Under the pieces are notes generated by a model. That model was given only the letters and a program-made list of their open reading frames with translations. It did no database searches and was not told the origin of the DNA. DNA of 64,000 nt from Halobellus inordinatus (GTDB taxonomy: Archaea > Halobacteriota > Halobacteria > Halobacteriales > Haloferacaceae): positions 124,001 through 188,000 of the forward strand of contig NZ_JANHAV010000003.1 of the NCBI RefSeq assembly GCF_024464655.1, read 5' to 3'. Position numbers and translations under genes: made by a program. This document shows positions 5,066-22,045 of this stretch, piece after piece; the stretch's first letter is position 1; each line of letters begins with the position of its first letter.

Positions 5066-6022
5066 TCAGTTGCGTCGCCGCTGGTAGTTCTTCGTCACCA
5101 TCCTGTCCGTGGTCCAGTGTCGGTACTTCGACTTGTGGTCCGCCGGTATCGTGACCTGCGAGCGGTAGTCACCTGCGTCAAGATCAATGTGGTCGAACCA
5201 GTGGTTCAGGTCGCGGTCGATCATTTCTGAGAGCCGTTTGGTCGGAGAGGCGAACTCAACCTCAAGTTCCTTCCTGATGTTCTCGTCTATTCCCTCCTCG
5301 TACGCGGACTTGTTCTCGAACAGGCTCCGGAGTACTGGATAAACCGGACTCACGGCGGACCGAAGCCATATCGGGGCGTCGTGAACGAACCAGCCTTTGA
5401 TCTCGTCGTACAGGGCTGGTCCACGGTATCGTGCCTGATTGACACGCTCGTCAATGATATCGGGTTGGTAGCCGGGATCGACGCCGATGAATTCGTAGAT
5501 CGATTCGATGAACGCGGCGTTGTCTTCGACGAAGTCGTCGAAAAGGAATATCTCGACCTGCTCTTCGGAGAGCGCCGTCTGCCAACGTTCGACGTGATTC
5601 ACGTAGTATCCCGGTCGAATGAACACTTCGTAGGCCTGATCGACAAAGAAGATGTCGTCGAAGTCGAAGTTGAGCCACCCGCTCTGGGTGTCGTGCCACC
5701 ACTGCGAGAACGCTCGGTCGATCGGATTCCGGAGCGTGAACATAACTTTGACGTCAGGAAAGTCCTCGGCCACGCGTTTCGGAGCAGACTCGTTGTTGAT
5801 GTATCCTGGAGATGATTCCCCGACGATCTGATCTGGGTCGGCCTCAGCGAAGACAGAGCGGTACCAGTCTGATCCCTGATGATACTTGGTGTTGAAGTAA
5901 TTTACCGGTTTGAGGTCCGGAACGTGGATCTGCGGGTGCTCTTTCAGTGCCTCGTAGACCCAGGACGACCCCGATTTGCTCGGCCCGCCGTATATGAAGT
6001 CTGGAGCAGCTCCTGTACTCAT
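5066..6022 (-). CDS. PAPS-dependent sulfotransferase
   Basis: 318 residues from the ATG at 6022. A GTG at 6052 is possible, but an A/T box at about 6048-6060 fits a near-leaderless transcript from 6022. The 5'-phosphosulfate-binding loop is S-K-S-G-S-S-W (residues 15-21). The 3'-phosphate-binding segment is L-R-N-P-I-D-R-A-F-S (Arg98 and Ser106). Both mark the PAPS sulfotransferase fold. No transmembrane segment is evident, so a cytosolic enzyme acting on a nucleotide- or dolichol-linked glycan is likely. The donor enzymes Sat and CysC are encoded about 6.5 kb away. It is divergent from the polytopic membrane gene at 6150. Confidence 0.88.
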   Translation of the reverse strand: MSTGAAPDFIYGGPSKSGSSWVYEALKEHPQIHVPDLKPVNYFNTKYHQGSDWYRSVFAEADPDQIVGESSPGYINNESAPKRVAEDFPDVKVMFTLRNPIDRAFSQWWHDTQSGWLNFDFDDIFFVDQAYEVFIRPGYYVNHVERWQTALSEEQVEIFLFDDFVEDNAAFIESIYEFIGVDPGYQPDIIDERVNQARYRGPALYDEIKGWFVHDAPIWLRSAVSPVYPVLRSLFENKSAYEEGIDENIRKELEVEFASPTKRLSEMIDRDLNHWFDHIDLDAGDYRSQVTIPADHKSKYRHWTTDRMVTKNYQRRRN

Positions 6023-6149
6023 TGTCTGTACGAAGATTGATGTAGCACTCAAAAGTTTCTCTCTATTCTCGCGACGAGACCGACAGAGACTGACTTAGAC
6101 GGCGTTCCAGCACCATTAAATAACGGTGAGAGCAATCCACCGACGATCG

Positions 6150-7791: not shown

Positions 7792-9177
7792 ATGACTCGC
7801 CGCCCGAACGTCGTCTGGATAACGCTGGATAGCGTCCGTCAGGACCACACGTCGATGGCAGGATATCGGCGGGATACGACCCCCCACTTGGAACGTATCG
7901 GGAACGGGTCGGCGAGTCAGTCGTTCTCGAACGCTTTTTCGCAGGGAATCTGGACTCTCGCTTCGTCGGCTTCGATCCTGACCGGCACCTACCCCTCACA
8001 CCACCGGGTCGGGTTCGACAGCGAACGTCTCGGGGACGAACTCCGGACTGTCGCAGAGCTGTTCAAAGACGAGGGATATCACACCGCTTGCCTCTCGCGG
8101 AACACGCATCTGAGCTCGGCGACGAATCTCGACCGTGGATTCGACGACTTCAAGTGGATCGCATCGTCGACGCTACTGCGTGAGGCCGGGGTTAAGACAA
8201 CACTTAAGTACCTCCTGAATATCCGCCGTCATTCGGCCGGATTGACGCGGGATCCAGCGAAGCACGCGACGCCGTTCGTGATGAACGACCTCGCAAAGGA
8301 TATGCTGGACCGCTACGGGTCGCAGTCCGAACCTTTCTTCTTCTATCTTCACTACAACGAACCCCACCGACCGTACTACCCACCGCTCCCGTTTCTCAAC
8401 CGCTACACGGAGGACATCGAGATGTCGCCGAAGGAAGCAGCCGACTTCGCAATGTGGATGCACTACAATCTCCACGAGGCGGTCGCGAACGGCTGTGACT
8501 TCACCGACGAACAGTGGGAGGCTCTCTTTGCGATGTATGACGCGGAGATAGCGTACACTGACGAGTGCATCGGACGTCTGTACGACTATGTCCAGTCGCT
8601 CGACCTGAACGACACGATATTTGTCGTCACGGCGGATCACGGCGAACTGTTCGGAGAGGGCGGGATGCTCGCCCACAAGGTCCTCCTCGACGACGCGCTG
8701 ATCAACGTACCGCTGGTCCTTGACGGATTGGATCTCGATGCCGAGGACTTCGTGCAACACGTCGACATTATGCAGACTATCCTCGAACGGATCGGCGCCG
8801 ACACGACGCAGTTGCAGGGCGTCAGTCTCGACTCGTCGACCCGTGACCACGTGATCACCCAGCGGGGGGCTGCAGAGTTCGACCCGTTCCTCGAAGCGAA
8901 CCCAGACTTCGACGTGTCGCGCTATCACGAACCGCCGCTCAGTTGTCTGCGAACGAGGAAGTTCAAGTATCAACGGAGCGCTGACGGTGAGGATCTCTAT
9001 CACCTTCCAGACGAATCGGCGGACGTCGCCGAGATGTATCCGGAAGTTCACGACGAACTACGGTCACGACTGGAGGTGTGGCTTGAAACTGATGGGGCGC
9101 CCGTGTCGACAGTCGCGGAAGCAGAGTTCACCGACGCGATGAAACGACAGCTCCGAGACCTCGGGTATGTCGAGTAA
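7792..9177 (+). CDS. Sulfatase-like AlkP-superfamily hydrolase or transferase with Thr nucleophile
   Basis: A 461-residue protein with a sulfatase-type fold. The first metal motif is W-I-T-L-D-S-V-R-x-D (Asp13), and T-A-D-H-G-E-L is at about 280. The nucleophile segment W-T-L-A-S-S-A-S-I-L-T-G puts Thr55 where true sulfatases carry the Cys or Ser that becomes formylglycine, and the following Pro/Arg pair is also absent. It is therefore probably not a classical sulfatase. A phosphoester hydrolase, or a transferase as in LtaS/EptA-like enzymes, is more likely. No signal peptide or transmembrane segment is visible. It ends in L-R-D-L-G-Y-V-E, and the flippase ATG follows two bases after its stop. 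Confidence 0.85.
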   Translation: MTRRPNVVWITLDSVRQDHTSMAGYRRDTTPHLERIGNGSASQSFSNAFSQGIWTLASSASILTGTYPSHHRVGFDSERLGDELRTVAELFKDEGYHTACLSRNTHLSSATNLDRGFDDFKWIASSTLLREAGVKTTLKYLLNIRRHSAGLTRDPAKHATPFVMNDLAKDMLDRYGSQSEPFFFYLHYNEPHRPYYPPLPFLNRYTEDIEMSPKEAADFAMWMHYNLHEAVANGCDFTDEQWEALFAMYDAEIAYTDECIGRLYDYVQSLDLNDTIFVVTADHGELFGEGGMLAHKVLLDDALINVPLVLDGLDLDAEDFVQHVDIMQTILERIGADTTQLQGVSLDSSTRDHVITQRGAAEFDPFLEANPDFDVSRYHEPPLSCLRTRKFKYQRSADGEDLYHLPDESADVAEMYPEVHDELRSRLEVWLETDGAPVSTVAEAEFTDAMKRQLRDLGYVE

Positions 9178-9179
9178 CG

Positions 9180-10589
9180 ATGCGCCTGGCGAAGACGACG
9201 GTCGCGTACTTCCTCGCACAGGTCGGTAAGTCGCTCGCTGGATTCGTCGCGACGCTCTACATTGCACGGGTCCTCGGCCCGACCCCGCTCGGACAGTATG
9301 CGGTCGTTCTGGCGCTCTCGTTCTGGCTGGCGCTTCCGGCCGGTGCGATATCGAGTGCGATCAAGAAGCGCGTCAGCGAGGGCACCGATCAGGCCGAGTA
9401 CCTCTGGACAGGTGTCGGAATGAGCGTTACGATTGCCCTACTGTTCGCCGTCGTCATCGTAGCGTTTCGTCCGTACGTCAACGACTACATCGGAACGGAT
9501 GTCGCCCTGCTATTGGGAGTACTGATCGTCTCGAAGTCGCTCTTCCAGACGACGTCTACGGGGCTCCACGGTCTCAGGATGGTCGCAAAAGGTGGATACA
9601 CCCAATTCATCGAGCGTCTCCTCCGGACGGGACTCCAGATCTTTCTCATCTGGTTGAGTTTCGAGGTGTTCGGTCTGGTCCTCGGTCACATACTGTCGCT
9701 CGCTGCAGCGACGGTCGTCGCAGTCCTCTGGTCGACCGTCGGGGTCTCCCTCCCGAGCGTCGATCACGCAAAGGACCTCTACTCGTACGCGAAGTACGCT
9801 TGGCTCAGTTCCCTCAAGGGACGCGCTTTCAGTTGGATCGACACGATCGTCCTCGCACTGTTCGTCTCGTCGTCGCTCATCGGGATCTACGAGGTCGCGT
9901 GGTCGCTGGCGTCGATGTTCGCACTCGTCAGCATCTCGATCCACCAGACCCTGTTCCCGGAGTTCAGCGACTTGGAGACGGACGGTAACTTCGACCAGAT
10001 CCACCACTACCTGAACGAAGGGTTGGTCTTCATTGGCGTGTTCGCGATACCGGGATTGTTCGGCGGAACGGTCATTGGTTCACGAGTGCTCGAAATATAC
10101 GGAAGCGAGTTCAGCAAGGGAAGTCTCGTGTTGGTAGTGTTGATCGCAGCCCGACTCCTCGCCGCGTACGAACAGCAATTCCTGAGTGTTATCAACGCGA
10201 TCGACCGGCCGGATGTCGCATTCCGTATCAACGGGCTGTTCGTCGTGGCTAACGTCTCGCTCAATCTCGGACTCGTATACCTCTACAGTTGGATAGGCGC
10301 TGCTGTCGCGACGCTCATCTCGGTCGTCATCACTACTGTCGCGGGCTATATCGCCCTTACCAAACTCATTGGCCGGCCGGACGTTCCATACCCAGAAATC
10401 GCACAAGAGATAATCGCGGCACTCGTGATGGTAGGAGCAGTTATCCTGATCGAACCGACAGCCCCAGAGTCGGTCGCAGGGACGGTCGCCCTCGTCTTGC
10501 TCGGTGCTGGAGTCTACGGAACTATACTCGTCGCGATCTCTTCTCGGATCCGGCAGAAGACCCGATCTGTCGTCGTTTCGCTCGTATAG
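9180..10589 (+). CDS. Wzx/AglR-like polysaccharide flippase
   Basis: 469 residues with about 12-14 hydrophobic helices and the N-terminal pattern of polysaccharide-biosynthesis flippases (MOP superfamily: F-L-A-Q-V-G-K-S ... Y-I-A-R-V-L-G-P-x-x-L-G-Q-Y). Such proteins move lipid-linked oligosaccharides across the membrane; AglR is the candidate haloarchaeal dolichol-phosphate-sugar flippase. The gene starts two bases after the sulfatase-like gene, so the two share a transcript. It is convergent with the next gene, with only four bases between them. The lipid-linked cargo is presumably the glycan modified by this cluster. Confidence 0.88.
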   Translation: MRLAKTTVAYFLAQVGKSLAGFVATLYIARVLGPTPLGQYAVVLALSFWLALPAGAISSAIKKRVSEGTDQAEYLWTGVGMSVTIALLFAVVIVAFRPYVNDYIGTDVALLLGVLIVSKSLFQTTSTGLHGLRMVAKGGYTQFIERLLRTGLQIFLIWLSFEVFGLVLGHILSLAAATVVAVLWSTVGVSLPSVDHAKDLYSYAKYAWLSSLKGRAFSWIDTIVLALFVSSSLIGIYEVAWSLASMFALVSISIHQTLFPEFSDLETDGNFDQIHHYLNEGLVFIGVFAIPGLFGGTVIGSRVLEIYGSEFSKGSLVLVVLIAARLLAAYEQQFLSVINAIDRPDVAFRINGLFVVANVSLNLGLVYLYSWIGAAVATLISVVITTVAGYIALTKLIGRPDVPYPEIAQEIIAALVMVGAVILIEPTAPESVAGTVALVLLGAGVYGTILVAISSRIRQKTRSVVVSLV

Positions 10590-10593
10590 GGCC

Positions 10594-11571
10594 TCATATG
10601 TAGCCGAGGTCCTCAAGTTGGCCTTTTACTCGCGCGGATTGTTTTGCGTCTCGCTCTCGGTTGATGTCCCGCGGTGCGGGTACGTGTCGGCCGTCCGAAA
10701 GTGCCGCTTCGATCGTCTCGCGTAGGTCAAGGACACTTTCAATACCATCTACGAGCGCCGGATCGGTACTCGCCACCATCGCGGTGTCGGTGTGGAGGCC
10801 ATCCTGAAGCCCATGGTCACTCACCAGTAGAAGTTCATCGTCATCATCAAGGTCTTCAACAAGATCCGCGACAGCTCCGTCAACCACGTCGTACGCGGTT
10901 TCCTGTAATCCGGGCCAGTCGTAGGTGATATGACCGATCAGGTCAAGGCCACTTGTGTACCCGAAGACGAGTTCGTGCTGGCTCGAATAGTGCGCAGCCC
11001 TGGTACGAGCTGTCCGAACCATAATCATTTCTACGCACTGATCGTAGAAGGCCAGCGGATCGGCCGAACTGTGGCCGCCGGTCGCGTCAGGGTCGCGTTC
11101 GAACAAGTCTCCCATCGACTTCCGCAACTCGTGTTCTCTGTCCGTCTCGTCGGTGTCAGTGACGTAGTTCGGAACACCGATGGCCGTGGCTTCGTGTCCG
11201 TCGAATACTGTCGAGAGGTTATGCTCGCTGTAGTACGTCGCAGGGGTCCGGAACGCATCTTGGTCAGTCGTGTTGAGTAGCCACATTCCGATCTTTGTGC
11301 GTACGGATTTCGGCAGGAAACCCTCCGCAAGATCGCTCGCGAGGTTCAACCACTGGTTGTCCCACGCGACGCCGTCTTCGATGACAAGTCCGTGCTCATC
11401 AGGATGAAGTCCAGTGATGATCGTTGGCCACAGCTCGTGCGTGTTTGGTTCACCAGATGCGCTGATAATCGTTTCAATCGATCGATGACTATCCAGTGTG
11501 AGATGTGGGTGACGATCTGGTTCGACGAGATCGGGGTCCATTGCGTCGATCCCGAAGACGATTAGAGTCAT
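10594..11571 (-). CDS. Small alkaline-phosphatase-superfamily protein
   Basis: A 325-residue AlkP-superfamily protein. F-G-I-D-A-M-D (Asp9) is the first metal motif. T-H-E-L-W-P-T-I-I-T-G places Thr44 at the nucleophile position, and L-V-S-D-H-G is the late metal motif. It ends in Q-L-E-D-L-G-Y-I, the tail shared with the other two AlkP-type proteins and the APS kinase here. There is no signal peptide. A two-module phosphatase of this kind in a glycan cluster could act on sugar phosphates or nucleotide sugars, but the sequence does not say which. It lies next to the PHP phosphoesterase gene, with the same orientation and a 32-base gap. Confidence 0.8.
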   Translation of the reverse strand: MTLIVFGIDAMDPDLVEPDRHPHLTLDSHRSIETIISASGEPNTHELWPTIITGLHPDEHGLVIEDGVAWDNQWLNLASDLAEGFLPKSVRTKIGMWLLNTTDQDAFRTPATYYSEHNLSTVFDGHEATAIGVPNYVTDTDETDREHELRKSMGDLFERDPDATGGHSSADPLAFYDQCVEMIMVRTARTRAAHYSSQHELVFGYTSGLDLIGHITYDWPGLQETAYDVVDGAVADLVEDLDDDDELLLVSDHGLQDGLHTDTAMVASTDPALVDGIESVLDLRETIEAALSDGRHVPAPRDINRERDAKQSARVKGQLEDLGYI

Positions 11572-11603: not shown

Positions 11604-12464
11604 TTACGCAGCGCGGTCTTCCAGTGCTGCCAGTTCGTCAGCCGGAATCTGTACCTCTCCAAGTCTGAACTTGCCGGATTCTGGGCCGTGACAGTCGGAA
11701 CCTCCTGTTTTCAAGAGACCATACCGCTCGGCGAGTGCAGCAGCGTCCTCCTCTGTGATATCGGCATACTGGTCACTCGTCTCAGATCCGTATGGGTACC
11801 AGACTTCAATCCCGTCAAGCCCAGCATTGGCGAGTGTCTCAACCATCTGCTCAACAGTGGAAGTATCGCTCCGGATCCGTCCCGGATGTGCGAGCGAACA
11901 GACACCACCCGACCCGTGGATCGTCTCAACCACTTCCTTGTAATCGAGTCGTTCCATCGGAACGAACGCCTCGCCTTCCTTGGCTAAATACTGCTCAAAC
12001 GCCTCACCAATCGAATCAACGACCCCTCGTTCAATGAGAACCTCTGCGAGATGGGGACGACCGAGATTCCCCTCAACCTCGGCGTCCAGTGCCTCGTAGC
12101 AGAGGTCAAGGTCTGCAACGACCGAGAGGTTCTTCACTAGTTTACGATTACGTTCAATTCGGAAACCACGGGCTCGTTCAAGCATCGTCTGAAGTTTCGA
12201 ATCATTGGGATCGACAAAATATCCAAGAATTTCGATCTTCGTATCGAAGAGGTCGGCGCGGACTTCGACACCGGTGATAACTTGGATGTCCTGCCGAGTC
12301 GTACTCCTTGTTTCGAACCACTCGTCAATGACATCGTGATCCGTGATCGCGATTGCTTCCAGTCCTCGGTCTGCTGCAATCGCAACGCGCTGACCCACAC
12401 CGATCGTCCCATCTGAGGCGGGAGTGTGCATGTGTAGATCAGCAGCTCCGTCACTGTGACTCAT
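11604..12464 (-). CDS. PHP-domain phosphoesterase, TrpH/YciV type; candidate PAP phosphatase
   Basis: 286 residues from the ATG at 12464. An in-frame ATG at 12569 lies beyond the promoter and inside the divergent sat gene. Motifs of the PHP fold are D-L-H-M-H-T (His11, His13), I-T-D-H-D, G-V-E-V, a late A-H-P-G-R and G-S-D-C-H-G near the end. In the TrpH/YciV group, members are known to hydrolyse 3',5'-bisphosphonucleotides such as pAp and short RNA ends. Sulfotransferases release 3'-phosphoadenosine 5'-phosphate, and this gene shares its promoter region with sat-cysC. I therefore infer a PAP-clearing role, analogous to CysQ. The family assignment is firm; the substrate is inference. Confidence 0.82.
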   Translation of the reverse strand: MSHSDGAADLHMHTPASDGTIGVGQRVAIAADRGLEAIAITDHDVIDEWFETRSTTRQDIQVITGVEVRADLFDTKIEILGYFVDPNDSKLQTMLERARGFRIERNRKLVKNLSVVADLDLCYEALDAEVEGNLGRPHLAEVLIERGVVDSIGEAFEQYLAKEGEAFVPMERLDYKEVVETIHGSGGVCSLAHPGRIRSDTSTVEQMVETLANAGLDGIEVWYPYGSETSDQYADITEEDAAALAERYGLLKTGGSDCHGPESGKFRLGEVQIPADELAALEDRAA

Positions 12465-12489
12465 TTGAGTTTGATTATAAGCGAATGAT

Positions 12490-12495
12490 TTTAAA
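12490..12495. promoter_or_regulatory. Shared TATA element between the PHP gene and sat
   Basis: A self-complementary TTTAAA inside a longer A/T run lies 27-28 bases from the ATG of sat on one side and 28-29 bases from the ATG of the PHP gene on the other. Archaeal TATA boxes sit about 25-28 bases before the transcription start, so both genes could be leaderless and driven from the same box. A second A/T patch (12472-12481) is nearer the PHP gene but too close for a start at 12464. Confidence 0.55.
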
Positions 12496-12519
12496 TAGTG
12501 GCATTGAGCATCCACCCAT

Positions 12520-13689
12520 ATGATTGAGCCGCACGGAGGCCGATTGGTCGACAAGGTCGTCGGCGACAAGTATGCCGACCAGTTGCGGAACGAAGTGGGT
12601 AGGGGGCCTCGAATTGATCTGAATGTGAGTCAATATCAAGACGCTATCAACATCGCGACCGGGCGGTTTAGTCCGATAGATGGCTACCTCACACAAAACG
12701 ATTTCCTGAAGGTTGTTCACGATATGACGCTCGAGAATGGCGTCACGTGGCCCTTGCCGATCACGCTCGACGTTGACTCAACCGTTGCCGAAGATTTGAC
12801 ACCGGGAGAGAAGGCACTCCTTCGTAGTCCAGCAGAGGAACCGATTGGAGTTATTGACGTCGAGGAGGTGTACAAGCACAATAAAGATGACACCGTTGAG
12901 TATGTGTTCGGGACTGCTGATCAGGATCATCCCGGCGTCGCCAACTATCTTAATCAAGAGGACTTTCTCGTCGGTGGTCCGATCTATCTTTTCGATGAGC
13001 ACCGCTACAACAGTCGCGACCTCCTCCCCGCAGAATCCCGCGTTCTATTTAGCCACCGCGACTGGGAGACTGTCGCAGGATTTCAGACACGAAATGCACC
13101 ACATCGAGCGCATGAATACATCCAAAAGTCTGCACTCGAACAGACTGACGGTCTCCTGATCCAGCCGAAACTCGGTGACAAGAAAGTCGACGATTATCGC
13201 GACGATACGATCCTCGGTGCATACGAGACACTCATAGAAGAGTACTACCGAGAGGGTATGGTCGCGCTATCAGTGTTCCCCAGTCAGATGCGCTATGCGG
13301 GACCCCGTGAAGCGATCTTCGATGCAATCGTCCGCAAGAATCAAGGGTGTACGCACTTCGTCGTCGGTCGCGACCACGCTGGTGTTGGCGACTACTATCA
13401 CGAATTCGGAGCACAGCGCATCTTCGGTGATATCGCTGATATCGGCATCGAGCCACTGTTCTACGACTATTCATTCTACTGTCACTCCTGTGATGGAATG
13501 ACCTCCGAGAAGATTTGTCCCCACGGGAGTGAAGAGCAAGTCCACCCGAGCGGGAGCAGGATCCGCTCACTTATCGGGGAGGGCAAACAACCATCGGCAA
13601 AGATGATGCGTCCGGAAGTCGCGTCGTACGTAATGGACGCGGACGAACCTTTCGTCACAGAGGATGCTCCGGTTGGAGGCGTACAATGA
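12520..13689 (+). CDS. sat: Sulfate adenylyltransferase (ATP sulfurylase)
   Basis: 389 residues, normal for the monofunctional archaeal/bacterial enzyme, which makes adenylyl sulfate (APS) and pyrophosphate from sulfate and ATP. The active-site segment Q-T-R-N-A-P-H-R-A-H-E is at 189-199, with the H-x-x-H pair at 195/198. V-G-R-D-H-A-G-V-G is at about 282-290. Cys321, Cys324 and Cys333 form the zinc-knuckle-like motif of the archaeal-type proteins. The APS kinase start overlaps the stop (ATGA), so the two enzymes are translationally coupled. No APS/PAPS reductase or sulfite reductase is nearby, which points to sulfation rather than cysteine synthesis. Confidence 0.95.
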   Translation: MIEPHGGRLVDKVVGDKYADQLRNEVGRGPRIDLNVSQYQDAINIATGRFSPIDGYLTQNDFLKVVHDMTLENGVTWPLPITLDVDSTVAEDLTPGEKALLRSPAEEPIGVIDVEEVYKHNKDDTVEYVFGTADQDHPGVANYLNQEDFLVGGPIYLFDEHRYNSRDLLPAESRVLFSHRDWETVAGFQTRNAPHRAHEYIQKSALEQTDGLLIQPKLGDKKVDDYRDDTILGAYETLIEEYYREGMVALSVFPSQMRYAGPREAIFDAIVRKNQGCTHFVVGRDHAGVGDYYHEFGAQRIFGDIADIGIEPLFYDYSFYCHSCDGMTSEKICPHGSEEQVHPSGSRIRSLIGEGKQPSAKMMRPEVASYVMDADEPFVTEDAPVGGVQ

Positions 13690-14318
13690 CGTTCACGCTG
13701 TGGTTTATGGGTCGTCCTGCTGCCGGAAAATCAACGCTTGCGAGTCAGATAGAGGCATACCTTCGCGACCAAGGCATCCAAGTCGAGAATCTCGACGGTG
13801 ACGAGATCCGTAAGAACCTGCACCCAGATCTAGGATTCTCTCGTGAAGACCGTGAGATCAACAACCGTCGGACGGCGTTCATCGCCAAGTTGCTGAACAG
13901 AAACGGGATTGCGACGGTGACGGGAATGATCACGCCATTCCGTGATTCACAAGCAATGGCGCGAGACATTGTAGAACCGGATGGAGATTTTGTTCTTATA
14001 TACGTGAAGTGCTCTGTTGACGAAGCAGCACGGCGAGACCCAAAAAACCTCTACGAAGAGGCTAGAGCGGGCAACATTGAGAAGTTCACTGGCATTAATC
14101 ACCCATTTCAGGAACCGCATAATCCGGATGTCATCGTCGACACAGAACAGAACACCGTTGATGAGAACCTTGAGCATATCAAACAGCAATTGCACAAGCG
14201 GGGCCTCCTCAACGGTGATTCCGAAGGAGACTACGGCGTCGATATGGATTGGCAACAAGAACAAGAGGTACTGGATCGGCTACGGTCTCTCGGCTACATC
14301 GAGGACAGCAGGGAGTAG
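13686..14318 (+). CDS. cysC: Adenylylsulfate kinase
   Basis: 210 residues. It phosphorylates APS at the 3' position to give PAPS. The P-loop is G-R-P-A-A-G-K-S-T (9-17). The D-G-D-E-I-R and N-L-H-P-D-L-G-F-S segments (38-52) bind APS, and F-T-G-I-N-H-P-F is the conserved lid region. The catalytic core ends near residue 175. A family-atypical tail of about 30 residues finishes with L-D-R-L-R-S-L-G-Y-I-E, matching the last residues of the three AlkP-type enzymes of the cluster. It overlaps sat by four bases. Confidence 0.93.
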   Translation: MTFTLWFMGRPAAGKSTLASQIEAYLRDQGIQVENLDGDEIRKNLHPDLGFSREDREINNRRTAFIAKLLNRNGIATVTGMITPFRDSQAMARDIVEPDGDFVLIYVKCSVDEAARRDPKNLYEEARAGNIEKFTGINHPFQEPHNPDVIVDTEQNTVDENLEHIKQQLHKRGLLNGDSEGDYGVDMDWQQEQEVLDRLRSLGYIEDSRE

Positions 14319-18703: not shown

Positions 18704-18805
18704 TCTGAGCAATGCCTTCGACTAGAGAGAGTTCTCATCAGGCCCCCAAATGGGCATATCTATTCCCCCCACCTAAGGATGAGACAGCGACGTCTTAACA
18801 AAAGG

Positions 18806-18811
18806 CTTATT
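18806..18811 (+). promoter_or_regulatory. Probable TATA element of aglB
   Basis: CTTATT about 30 bases before the ATG at 18839 is the best A/T element upstream. It supports a near-leaderless transcript from 18839 and argues against the earlier in-frame ATG at 18779. Confidence 0.4.
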
Positions 18812-18838
18812 CGCGCTTTCCGAAACATTCCGTCCATA

Positions 18839-21800
18839 ATGGGTTCGCGTAGCGAAACTGACGACGGAGGAGGTCAATCCGTCCTCGACATCGTCGAAGA
18901 CTGGTATCAGGTCCCTGCTCTCCTCCTCGTGGTAGTCGTAATGTTCGCCTTGCGGATGCAATCCTACTCCAACTTCATCCGCAACGGCGAGGTCTACTTC
19001 TCCGGAAACGACGCGTGGTATCACTTCCGAGAAGTGATGTACACAGTCAAACACTGGCCCTCTACGATCCCGTTCGATCCGTGGACATACTTCCCCTATG
19101 GAACGTTTGTCGGCCAGTTCGGGACGCTCTACGACCAGATCGTCGCAACTGTTGCACTAGTCTTAGGACTCGGCTCACCGAGTCAGGCACTCATTGGCAA
19201 GACGCTTCTTGTCGCCCCGGCAGTCGCTGGCGCGCTTGCAGCCGTCCCAGTATATTTCCTCGGCAAGCGACTCTCCGGTCGGTTCGCCGGTCTCTTCGGT
19301 GCAGTCGTCTTGATGCTCCTACCGGGAACGTTCCTCGGACGTACGCTCGCTGGGGTGGCCGACCACAACGCGGTCGAACCGCTTGCGATGGCGCTGGCCA
19401 TCCTCGGATTCGTTATCGCTCTCCAGAAGGCCGAGTCGACGATGCCCGTTTGGGAGGTCGTCAGGGAAGAAATTCTCGAAAGCCGCGATCTCGATACTCT
19501 GAAAGAACCGCTGAAGTGGGGTCTCCTCGCTGGGTTGCTTACCGGACTCTATATCTGGACCTGGCCGCCAGGCGTGATTCTCGTGGGTATCATCGGCGTC
19601 TTTGCCCTCGTGAAAATCCCAAGCGACGTCGTCAACGACCGTACGCCCGAGCCAACGGCATTCGTCCTCGTGGCGAGTATGCTTGTTGTGACTGTAATGT
19701 CGCTCATCGTCGTGGAAGATGGTGGGTTCAGTACAACGATCCCCTCTTTGCTCCAGCCTGCGTCCGCACTGAGCGTCACTGTCGCTGCAATCGTACTCTC
19801 GTGGCTCGCGCGGGTCTGGGAAGAGTCCGATCTCGACGCATCTCTCTATCCCGCGGCAGTCGGTGGCATCTTCGTCGTCGGACTCGGTATTCTCGCTGTC
19901 CTCCCCTTCGGTCTCATTGACCTCATCGCGACGAACCTCCTGCGTATCGTAGGGTTCTCTGCCGGAGCGACCGCCCGAACCATCGGCGAAGCTCAACCGT
20001 TCATCGCACAGTCGACTCTCCAGCGCTACGGCGTTGGTGCCGCTGGCCGGATCTCTCTCGAATACGGTCTCACTTTCTTCACCGGACTCGTGGCAGCAGT
20101 CTGGCTGCACACGAAGCCACTCCTCAAGGAAGGAACCACGCGAGCGTACGGCTATATCGCTGGATCGCTCGCGATCATCGCGCTCGTCTTCCTCGTTCCT
20201 CCGCTTCTCGGCGGAATCGAAAGCGTCACAGGCATTAATCAACAGGTTGCTGGACTCCTCATCGTCTCGGCGCTTATCATCGGCGCGACCTTCGTCACCG
20301 ACTACGACGCCGACAAACTGTTCCTGATCGTCTGGGCGGCGTTTATCACTTCAATGGCGTTCACCCAGGTGCGCTTCAATTACTACCTCGCTATCACCGT
20401 CGCCGTCTTCAACGCCTTCCTCTTCGGTGAGATTCTCGGATGGCTCAACCTCCGCACGTCGGCGCGCGAAGCAGTCAACGACATCGACGGCTATCAGGTG
20501 CTCGCGATCGTCGCGACAGTTCTGCTCATCCTCGGACCAGCGCTCACGGTTCCGATCGCCGTCGGCGACACGCAGACCTCGCCGGCCTGGCAGTCCGCGC
20601 AGAACAACGGCCCGGGAGCAGTCACCGTCTGGGACGGCTCCCTCGAATGGATGCAGAATAACACCCCCGCGGAGGGTAATCTCGGCGGCGCAGGCAACGC
20701 CGATCAGATGGAGTACTACGGCACCTACCAGCGGACAGACGACTTCGAGTATCCCGACGGCGCCTACGGCGTGATGTCGTGGTGGGACTACGGCCACTGG
20801 ATCACGGTCCAAGGCGAACGCATTCCGAACGCCAACCCGTTCCAGGAAGGGGCAGGTACGGCGGCTAACTTCCTTCTCGCACCCAACGAGACGCAGTCAC
20901 AGGATGCTCTCGCCTCCCAGAGCACTGAAGGCGAGAACACCCGCTACGTGATGGTCGACTGGCAGATGGCGACGCCCGGATCGAAGTTCGGCGCGCCGAC
21001 GGTCTTCTACGACGCAGAGGAGAACGTCTCTCGGCAGGACTTCCTGCAGACGATGTACCGCTTCGACGACTCGAACGACGGGCAGTTCGTCGGCAACTTC
21101 CAACTCCGCACGCAGCGCTTCTACAACAGTACGATGACGCGGCTGTACTACTACCACGGGAGCGCGCGGCAGCCCTCGCCAGTCGTCGTCGACTGGGAGC
21201 CGCGACAGGTCCAGACGAACGCCGGCGACGCGGTCACCGTGCCCGCCAATCCGCAGGGCAACAGCACGTTCATCAAGACCTTCGACAATATGAGCGCCGC
21301 GCGCGAGTACGTTGAGAACGATCCGACCTCCCAGATCGGTGGGGTCGGCTCGTTCCCGAGCGAGCGCGTCGAAGCGCTCGATCACTACCGGCTCGCTCAC
21401 GTGAGCGATACGTCGGCCGGACAGTCGATCCTCCGGACCACCGGCCGCGACGCACAGGTCGCCGGGATCAACCCGCAGGTAACCGTGCCGAGCAGCCCGG
21501 CGTGGCTGAAGACCTTCGAGCGCGTCCCCGGCGCGACAGTCCAGGGAAGCGGAGCGCCCTCGGACACGACGGTTACCGCGAGCACCGAACTCCGCATCCC
21601 GACGACGAACTCGACGTTCACCTACACGCAGCAGGTGGAAACGAACGCGGACGGCGAGTTCACGATGACGCTGCCGTACTCGACGACCGGCTACGACGAG
21701 TACGGTCCCGAGAACGGCTACACGAACGTCAGCGTGCGCGCGACGGGCCCGTACACGCTCTCGACGCCCGCGACGTTCGACAACGGGACGATCACCAGCT

Positions 21801-22045
21801 ACCAGGCGAACCTCTCGGTCTCGGAAGGTCAGGTCAACGGTGACCAGGACGGCACGCTGAGCGTCGAACTCGAAGAGAACGCTCAAGAGCTGAACATCGG
21901 CGGCTCGTCCGATTCCAGCTCGTCTTCGGGCGACTCCAGCGGTACGAGCGAATCGGGCACTGACAGCACGTCCGGCGACTCGACCGCGACGCAGTCCTCG
22001 CTGAGCGCGTCGACAATCGAAAGCGACGCAGCGCGCGCGTACTGA
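18839..22045 (+). CDS. aglB: Oligosaccharyltransferase AglB (STT3 family)
   Basis: 1068 residues from the ATG at 18839; 20 further N-terminal residues are possible but lie over the promoter. AglB moves the lipid-linked glycan to Asn of N-x-S/T sequons on the outer face of the membrane. The first external loop carries G-N-D-A-W-Y-H (56-62; metal-binding Asp). About 13 transmembrane helices follow, then the soluble catalytic domain with S-W-W-D-Y-G-H-W, the W-W-D-Y-G motif at about 648-652. The C-terminal beta-domains end in a Ser/Gly/Thr/Asp-rich tail of about 50 residues, which looks like a spacer. It stands alone after transposase remnants, about 4.5 kb from the glycan cluster. Confidence 0.95.
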   Translation: MGSRSETDDGGGQSVLDIVEDWYQVPALLLVVVVMFALRMQSYSNFIRNGEVYFSGNDAWYHFREVMYTVKHWPSTIPFDPWTYFPYGTFVGQFGTLYDQIVATVALVLGLGSPSQALIGKTLLVAPAVAGALAAVPVYFLGKRLSGRFAGLFGAVVLMLLPGTFLGRTLAGVADHNAVEPLAMALAILGFVIALQKAESTMPVWEVVREEILESRDLDTLKEPLKWGLLAGLLTGLYIWTWPPGVILVGIIGVFALVKIPSDVVNDRTPEPTAFVLVASMLVVTVMSLIVVEDGGFSTTIPSLLQPASALSVTVAAIVLSWLARVWEESDLDASLYPAAVGGIFVVGLGILAVLPFGLIDLIATNLLRIVGFSAGATARTIGEAQPFIAQSTLQRYGVGAAGRISLEYGLTFFTGLVAAVWLHTKPLLKEGTTRAYGYIAGSLAIIALVFLVPPLLGGIESVTGINQQVAGLLIVSALIIGATFVTDYDADKLFLIVWAAFITSMAFTQVRFNYYLAITVAVFNAFLFGEILGWLNLRTSAREAVNDIDGYQVLAIVATVLLILGPALTVPIAVGDTQTSPAWQSAQNNGPGAVTVWDGSLEWMQNNTPAEGNLGGAGNADQMEYYGTYQRTDDFEYPDGAYGVMSWWDYGHWITVQGERIPNANPFQEGAGTAANFLLAPNETQSQDALASQSTEGENTRYVMVDWQMATPGSKFGAPTVFYDAEENVSRQDFLQTMYRFDDSNDGQFVGNFQLRTQRFYNSTMTRLYYYHGSARQPSPVVVDWEPRQVQTNAGDAVTVPANPQGNSTFIKTFDNMSAAREYVENDPTSQIGGVGSFPSERVEALDHYRLAHVSDTSAGQSILRTTGRDAQVAGINPQVTVPSSPAWLKTFERVPGATVQGSGAPSDTTVTASTELRIPTTNSTFTYTQQVETNADGEFTMTLPYSTTGYDEYGPENGYTNVSVRATGPYTLSTPATFDNGTITSYQANLSVSEGQVNGDQDGTLSVELEENAQELNIGGSSDSSSSSGDSSGTSESGTDSTSGDSTATQSSLSASTIESDAARAY

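Follow-up and report, generated by a model that had tools for sequence, protein, structure and literature searches.

The 64,000-nucleotide stretch of the Halobellus inordinatus genome analysed here (the window) encodes, at 11604..12464 on the minus strand, a 286-residue PHP-fold phosphoesterase of the TrpH / RNase AM / Cv1693 type. This protein, P0001, is probably a sulfation-dedicated PAP 3'-phosphatase that removes PAP for a PAPS-dependent sulfation module. The reading is based on a predicted fold, a conserved substrate site and a recurrent linkage to the genes that make the sulfate donor; from these we infer that PAP is the in vivo substrate and that the cell benefits from its removal. Since the known biochemistry of the fold comprises both pAp and 5'-phosphorylated RNA, the substrate is not fixed by sequence alone.

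P0001 would act as a metal-dependent phosphatase within a self-contained module. Sat would make APS and CysC would make PAPS, from which sulfotransferases of the surrounding glycan cluster would transfer sulfate, releasing PAP. PAP is a toxic leftover of sulfation. Removal of its 3'-phosphate by the PHP enzyme, giving AMP and Pi, would free the sulfotransferase from product inhibition and protect RNA turnover.

Family and predicted fold of P0001

The open reading frame starts with an ATG at 12464 and its stop codon ends at 11604. The protein matches the Pfam families PHP (PF02811, 4.9e-10) and PHP_C (8.4e-5), and its best NCBIfam models are the 3',5'-nucleoside bisphosphate phosphatase NF041577 (1.9e-45) and RNase RNM NF047791 (5.3e-42). 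The scores on these models, 155.2 bits against a curated cut-off of 400 and 144 bits against one of 375, lie far under the equivalog cut-offs; they therefore support the group but not orthology, and P0001 is not classed as an NF041577 equivalog. Its sequence relatives in the PDB are 3e0f/3o0f, Vibrio cholerae RNase AM (9etk), Cv1693 (2yb1) and Escherichia coli RNase AM (7ug9). An AlphaFold2 model with a mean pLDDT of 90.7 was compared using Foldseek, which returned TM-scores of 0.81 to 3e0f and 0.77 to both 9etk and 2yb1, with 7ug9 also among the top matches. The motifs and the modelled fold, with its inserted helical domain, are those of the TrpH/RNase AM/Cv1693 subgroup of PHP proteins, to which P0001 can be assigned on these grounds; the TrpH/YciV-type motifs noted in the first-pass annotation are thus borne out by the profile searches.

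A conserved pAp site with one altered metal ligand

To compare active sites we took the residues given for E. coli RNase AM, together with the overlay on the Cv1693-AMP complex (PMC9410882), and placed them on P0001 through a fresh alignment to the E. coli protein. In this alignment 14 of the 15 tabulated metal- and substrate-site residues are retained. They include the metal and motif residues H11, H13, D18, H43, E67, H193, D257 and H259, the 5'-phosphate arginines R102, R105 and R136 (E. coli 107, 110 and 141), the base-stacking F156 (Phe161) and R196 (Arg201), which contacts the reaction phosphate. All of these are invariant in 11 of 11 close homologues, P0001 included. In Cv1693, pAp is held by three arginines and a phenylalanine, the same set that is kept in P0001 (PMC9410882). 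The position of the phosphate-contacting arginine is occupied by tyrosine in homologues of 40-42% identity that are unlinked to CysC, and is mixed in other bacterial relatives, with leucine and threonine commonest.

The trinuclear metal site of the E. coli enzyme is formed by His13, Asp20, His45, Glu72, His83, His198, Asp255 and His257 (PMC9410882), and the single change among these ligands is at His83, which is Glu78 in P0001 and glutamate in all 11 close homologues. Glutamate also occupies this position in 3 of 79 bacterial relatives. Glutamate is able to ligate metal. The substitution is a real departure from the metal site of the characterised enzymes and counts against the proposed activity.

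The locus encodes PAPS synthesis within a glycan cluster

Divergent from the PHP gene lies sat (12520..13689, plus strand), encoding an ATP sulfurylase (PF01747, 1.7e-79; PUA_2, 1.2e-47; NF003166 above its cut-off). It overlaps by 4 bp with cysC (13686..14318, plus strand), which encodes an APS kinase (PF01583, 1.3e-52; TIGR00455 above its cut-off) with a C-terminal tail ending RLRSLGYIEDSRE. The divergent starts of the PHP gene and sat are 55 bp apart, and the two genes share the intergenic region between them (12465..12519), which the first-pass annotation took as a common promoter region; such a role is plausible from the sequence. It contains a near-palindromic TTTTAAAT at 12489-12496, about 27 bp from the PHP start codon and equally from that of sat, and given this spacing a single TATA-like element could plausibly drive two leaderless transcripts. 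A DDE transposase ORF (PF01609; 14807-15526, plus strand) lies a short way downstream of cysC and is a possible route of module mobility.

On its other side, the PHP gene is followed after 32 bp on the same strand by a gene for an alkaline-phosphatase-superfamily protein (Phosphodiest; 10594..11571, minus strand; PF01663, 3.7e-12), relatives of which occur at two other sat-cysC loci, L154 and L030. Further genes encode a polysaccharide flippase (9180..10589, plus strand; PF01943, 3.3e-15), a sulfatase-like protein of the same AlkP superfamily (7792..9177, plus strand; PF00884, 5.6e-38) and a PAPS-type sulfotransferase (Sulfotransfer_1; 5066..6052, minus strand; PF00685, 7.9e-16), the presumed source of PAP. 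The presence of an AglB oligosaccharyltransferase (18779..22045, plus strand; PF02516, 3.2e-25; AglB_core-like, AglB_L1) identifies this as a cluster for N-glycosylation. In the aglB cluster of Halobacterium, proteins of the AlkP superfamily are required for N-glycan sulfation, as established by deletion and heterologous expression (PMC11980604).

The PHP subtype is rare and accompanies sat-cysC

We defined the subtype as proteins at least 53% identical to P0001 and searched 394 haloarchaeal genomes, of which only 7 carry it; searches across the whole family extended this to 11 genes from 10 genomes, and the plasmid records searched contained distant homologues only. Some TrpH-type PHP match is present in 380 of the 394. 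The ubiquitous type is about 34% identical to P0001, and the H. inordinatus genome has its own copy (PHP2) on another contig. About 28 of the 394 have a genuine CysC (E <= 1e-36), chiefly of two forms, one of ~210 residues with adjacent sat and the other a fusion type of ~290 residues.

A survey of how often such PHP genes adjoin sat-cysC, suggested by the first-pass annotation, placed every subtype gene in genomes with the sat-cysC type of CysC (8 of 8) no more than 5 kb away from it. Four arrangements occur. The layout is divergent in the window, G021 and G374 and convergent in G078 and for both copies of G466. The genes are co-directional in G339 (SAT-CysC-PHP, with a gap of ~43 bp), while in G241 the PHP gene is placed downstream within a longer run of co-directional genes, which include those for a glycosyltransferase, a flippase, a sulfotransferase and a deacetylase. 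At the level of genomes the co-occurrence is 6/7 against 9/394 (hypergeometric 1e-10, uncorrected for kinship). The neighbourhood is not due to chance and, as gene order varies while the partnership is constant, function is favoured over shared descent of one arrangement. The two G466 copies belong to separate sat-cysC-PHP modules ~0.8 Mb apart on one contig (G466:C1; L153 and L154), and L154, like the window, also contains AglB and the two genes of the AlkP superfamily.

The association has exceptions on both sides. Three sat-cysC loci have no such PHP gene nearby (L028-L030, in G180, G303 and G221), and three subtype genes are found in genomes with no detected CysC (G200, G441 and G446, with G441 73% and G446 82% complete). 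The G441 and G446 copies are the closest to P0001 in the tree.

Alternative activities for P0001

In RNase AM the same fold functions in RNA 5'-end decay, and P0001, which has the fold and site of that enzyme, could be an RNase AM-like 5'-3' exoribonuclease or a phosphoesterase of short RNAs, in which case its position beside sat-cysC would reflect a loose clustering of surface-glycan genes. The TM-score of 0.77 to 9etk and the closeness of the RNase RNM score (144 bits) to that of the bisphosphatase model (155) agree with such an enzyme, and because RNase AM and Cv1693 have a common AMP site (PMC9410882) the two activities are inseparable by sequence. What makes a ribonuclease unlikely is the distribution, as neither rarity (7/394) nor a tie to CysC in several gene orders would be expected of a general RNase, and the ubiquitous TrpH-type protein (380/394 for any match, and 34% identical in the same genome) is available for the RNA role. 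The copies without CysC could instead point to a glycan-pathway phosphoesterase acting on sugar- or lipid-linked phosphate, which would travel with surface-polysaccharide clusters and have sat-cysC as a frequent but non-functional partner: the G200 gene belongs to a glycan cluster that includes sulfatase-like genes, and those of G441 and G446 are flanked by sugar-nucleotidyltransferase-like and phosphomannomutase-like genes, as judged from their sequences. Most copies, however, adjoin sat-cysC itself and not other glycan genes, and the nucleotide-binding Arg/Phe set is invariant; we regard this function as distinctly unlikely.

P0001 might also act on PAPS, returning it to APS as a 3'-phosphatase and so holding back the donor pool. 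PAPS and PAP differ at the 5' end only, and the shared divergent promoter region would permit co-regulation. However, the 5'-phosphate pocket is buried in the comparison of RNase AM with Cv1693 (PMC9410882), which suits PAP over the bulkier PAPS, and the futile cycle would be costly, leaving very little room for this activity.

Other candidates for PAP removal

The preferred function, hydrolysis of PAP, had been put forward as a substitute for CysQ. Family membership, the pAp-binding site, the recurrent link to sat-cysC that persists through rearrangement, the independent PHP-CysC pairings in other lineages and the lack of a true CysQ all speak for the PAP phosphatase itself, but "in place of" is too strong. 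CysQ (TIGR01331) was absent above the cut-off of 228.8 bits from all 40 haloarchaea searched with this model, this genome included. Two IMPase-fold genes score 96.3 and 52.9 bits, the former being the best match to the CysQ model in the genome; both lie elsewhere, in agreement with the earlier observation that no CysQ-type gene is nearby. Such sub-cut-off genes occur in haloarchaea both with and without CysC. The genome also encodes five DHH proteins of 404-641 residues, namely a HAN nuclease, an archaeal RecJ, two proteins with an N-terminal TrkA-N-like region and one with an N-terminal membrane-like segment, none of which matches the NCBIfam pAp-phosphatase models. IMPase-fold or DHH proteins could hydrolyse PAP in this genome, three sat-cysC loci are without the PHP gene, and three copies of it occur where no CysC was detected; replacement of CysQ is hence no more than a possibility.

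An argument for replacement drawn from the window alone was rejected, as L028-L030 and the three copies without CysC must count. We also considered complementarity in copy number between PHP and IMPase-fold genes. CysQ-model matches number five each in G180 and G303, which are without the PHP gene, and one or two in genomes with it; G221 has a single match and n=3, and the idea was dropped.

Other PHP lineages are found beside CysC

A separate haloarchaeal PHP lineage, TrpH-type but of another branch, adjoins 5 of 20 loci that encode the fusion form of CysC, whose operon comprises a Sulfotransfer_3 protein, the APS kinase fused to a nucleotidyltransferase-like domain and a YqcI/YcgG protein. 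At the position of RNase AM His143 this branch has histidine, and PHP2 of H. inordinatus has asparagine. In bacteria, a CysC-PHP operon arises independently. A Zixibacteriota MAG and four genomes related to it have the PHP gene directly after cysC, overlapping or abutting it, and these are all five of the genomes that carry this CysC. Of 79 bacterial TrpH-type loci from the genome-wide scan in which the MAG was found, some on short contigs, that of the MAG alone had a CysC at a distance of 10 kb or less, and adjacency is therefore not the default of this family.

In a quick tree the three CysC-linked PHP groups stand apart, and the starred branches require the "CysC-linked" label to have changed four times or more. 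We tentatively suggest, at somewhat below even chances, that recruitment of PHP-fold PAP phosphatases has occurred three times or more, in two haloarchaeal lineages and one bacterial, to provide dedicated scavengers of the by-product of CysC-sulfotransferase modules. They would form a third fold besides CysQ/FIG and DHH by which the sulfation cycle is closed, with a His-to-Glu metal site in the haloarchaeal sat-cysC branch.

The homologues of 40-42% identity from the same genus (G014, G315, G318, G487 and G489; L022-L024, L161 and L162) were set aside as a separate branch. No CysC was found at E <= 1e-10 in G487 or G489, and only weak matches in G014, G315 and G318. In L022 the gene is located between those for an RPE65-like oxygenase and a Schlafen-group-3 helicase-domain protein, with neighbours of the same sizes in L023 and L024, and a different role for this branch is likely.

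The CysC fusion itself, at L032:9343-10203 (minus strand) and 19 related haloarchaeal loci (L031, L033-L050), is an APS kinase with a C-terminal NMN-adenylyltransferase-like domain (CTP_transf_like, HIGH-type), and its gene is usually in an operon with those for the YqcI/YcgG protein and the Sulfotransfer_3 protein, of 407 residues. The 20-kb stretches around these loci showed no sat. The fusion may be a PAPS synthase that works without sat, or it may phosphorylate a different nucleotide-activated group; the Campylobacter enzymes Cj1415-Cj1418, which make CDP-phosphoramidate 3'-phosphate, offer a comparison.

Relation to known PAP phosphatases

The closest biochemical precedent is Cv1693, the Chromobacterium violaceum 3',5'-nucleotide bisphosphate phosphatase (PDB 2yb1/2yb4), which hydrolyses pAp (PMC8268124). 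It has in common with P0001 the PHP fold (TM 0.77), the Arg/Phe pAp pocket and the phosphate-contacting arginine, and differs in sequence (27% identity) and in one metal-ligand histidine, the counterpart of Glu78, with the remaining metal ligands kept. RNase AM (rnm/yciV/trpH; E. coli and V. cholerae; 7ug9, 9etk) likewise has the same fold and, apart from His83, the same tabulated site residues, but its genomic context is different and haloarchaea have a separate, ubiquitous PHP protein. Cv1693 is not known to be dedicated to sulfation. CysQ/Hal2 of the FIG superfamily catalyses the reaction proposed for P0001 (PAP to AMP and Pi), at the same position in the pathway, with an unrelated fold.

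A PAP phosphatase other than CysQ has archaeal precedent. The gene for the methanogen DHH-type enzyme MtPAPP is near those for ATPS and APSK, and its activity was confirmed by assay (PMC10322725). Like the activity proposed for P0001, MtPAPP (Methanothermococcus thermolithotrophicus) and PyapApase (Pyrococcus yayanosii) represent archaeal non-CysQ PAP phosphatases, but their DHH/DHHA1 fold is unrelated to PHP. Hydrolysis of PAP by a PHP fold is already known in bacteria. The apparent novelty lies in a PHP enzyme dedicated to archaeal sulfation, in its having been recruited repeatedly and in the variant metal site; we found no description of this in the literature searched, most subscription journals being outside its scope.

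Several haloarchaea are known to have sulfated surface glycans. If P0001 has the proposed activity, a candidate with the donor-making genes attached would close the haloarchaeal sulfation cycle and bring another fold to archaeal PAP removal, and a PHP gene beside CysC would be a genomic marker by which PAPS-dependent sulfation modules could be recognised in both archaea and bacteria. The study of Halobacterium N-glycan sulfotransferases is silent on PAPS and on the removal of PAP; in it, expression of the Halobacterium AlkP-type sulfotransferases in Haloferax volcanii led to sulfation of the host's N-glycan (PMC11980604). In our control set, CysC was not found in H. volcanii at E <= 1e-10.

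A common C-terminal tail

The tail of CysC in the window (13686-14318) has the form EExxIxxRLxxLGY(L/M/I), which also occurs in L016-L018, L020, L028-L030, L064, L139-L143, L153 and L154 and is shared by haloarchaeal CysC proteins and those of the bacterial CysC-PHP operons. It resembles the tails of two other products of the same cluster, the sulfatase-like protein (LRDLGYVE) and the AlkP-superfamily protein (LEDLGYI), and may possibly be a shared docking or stability tag.
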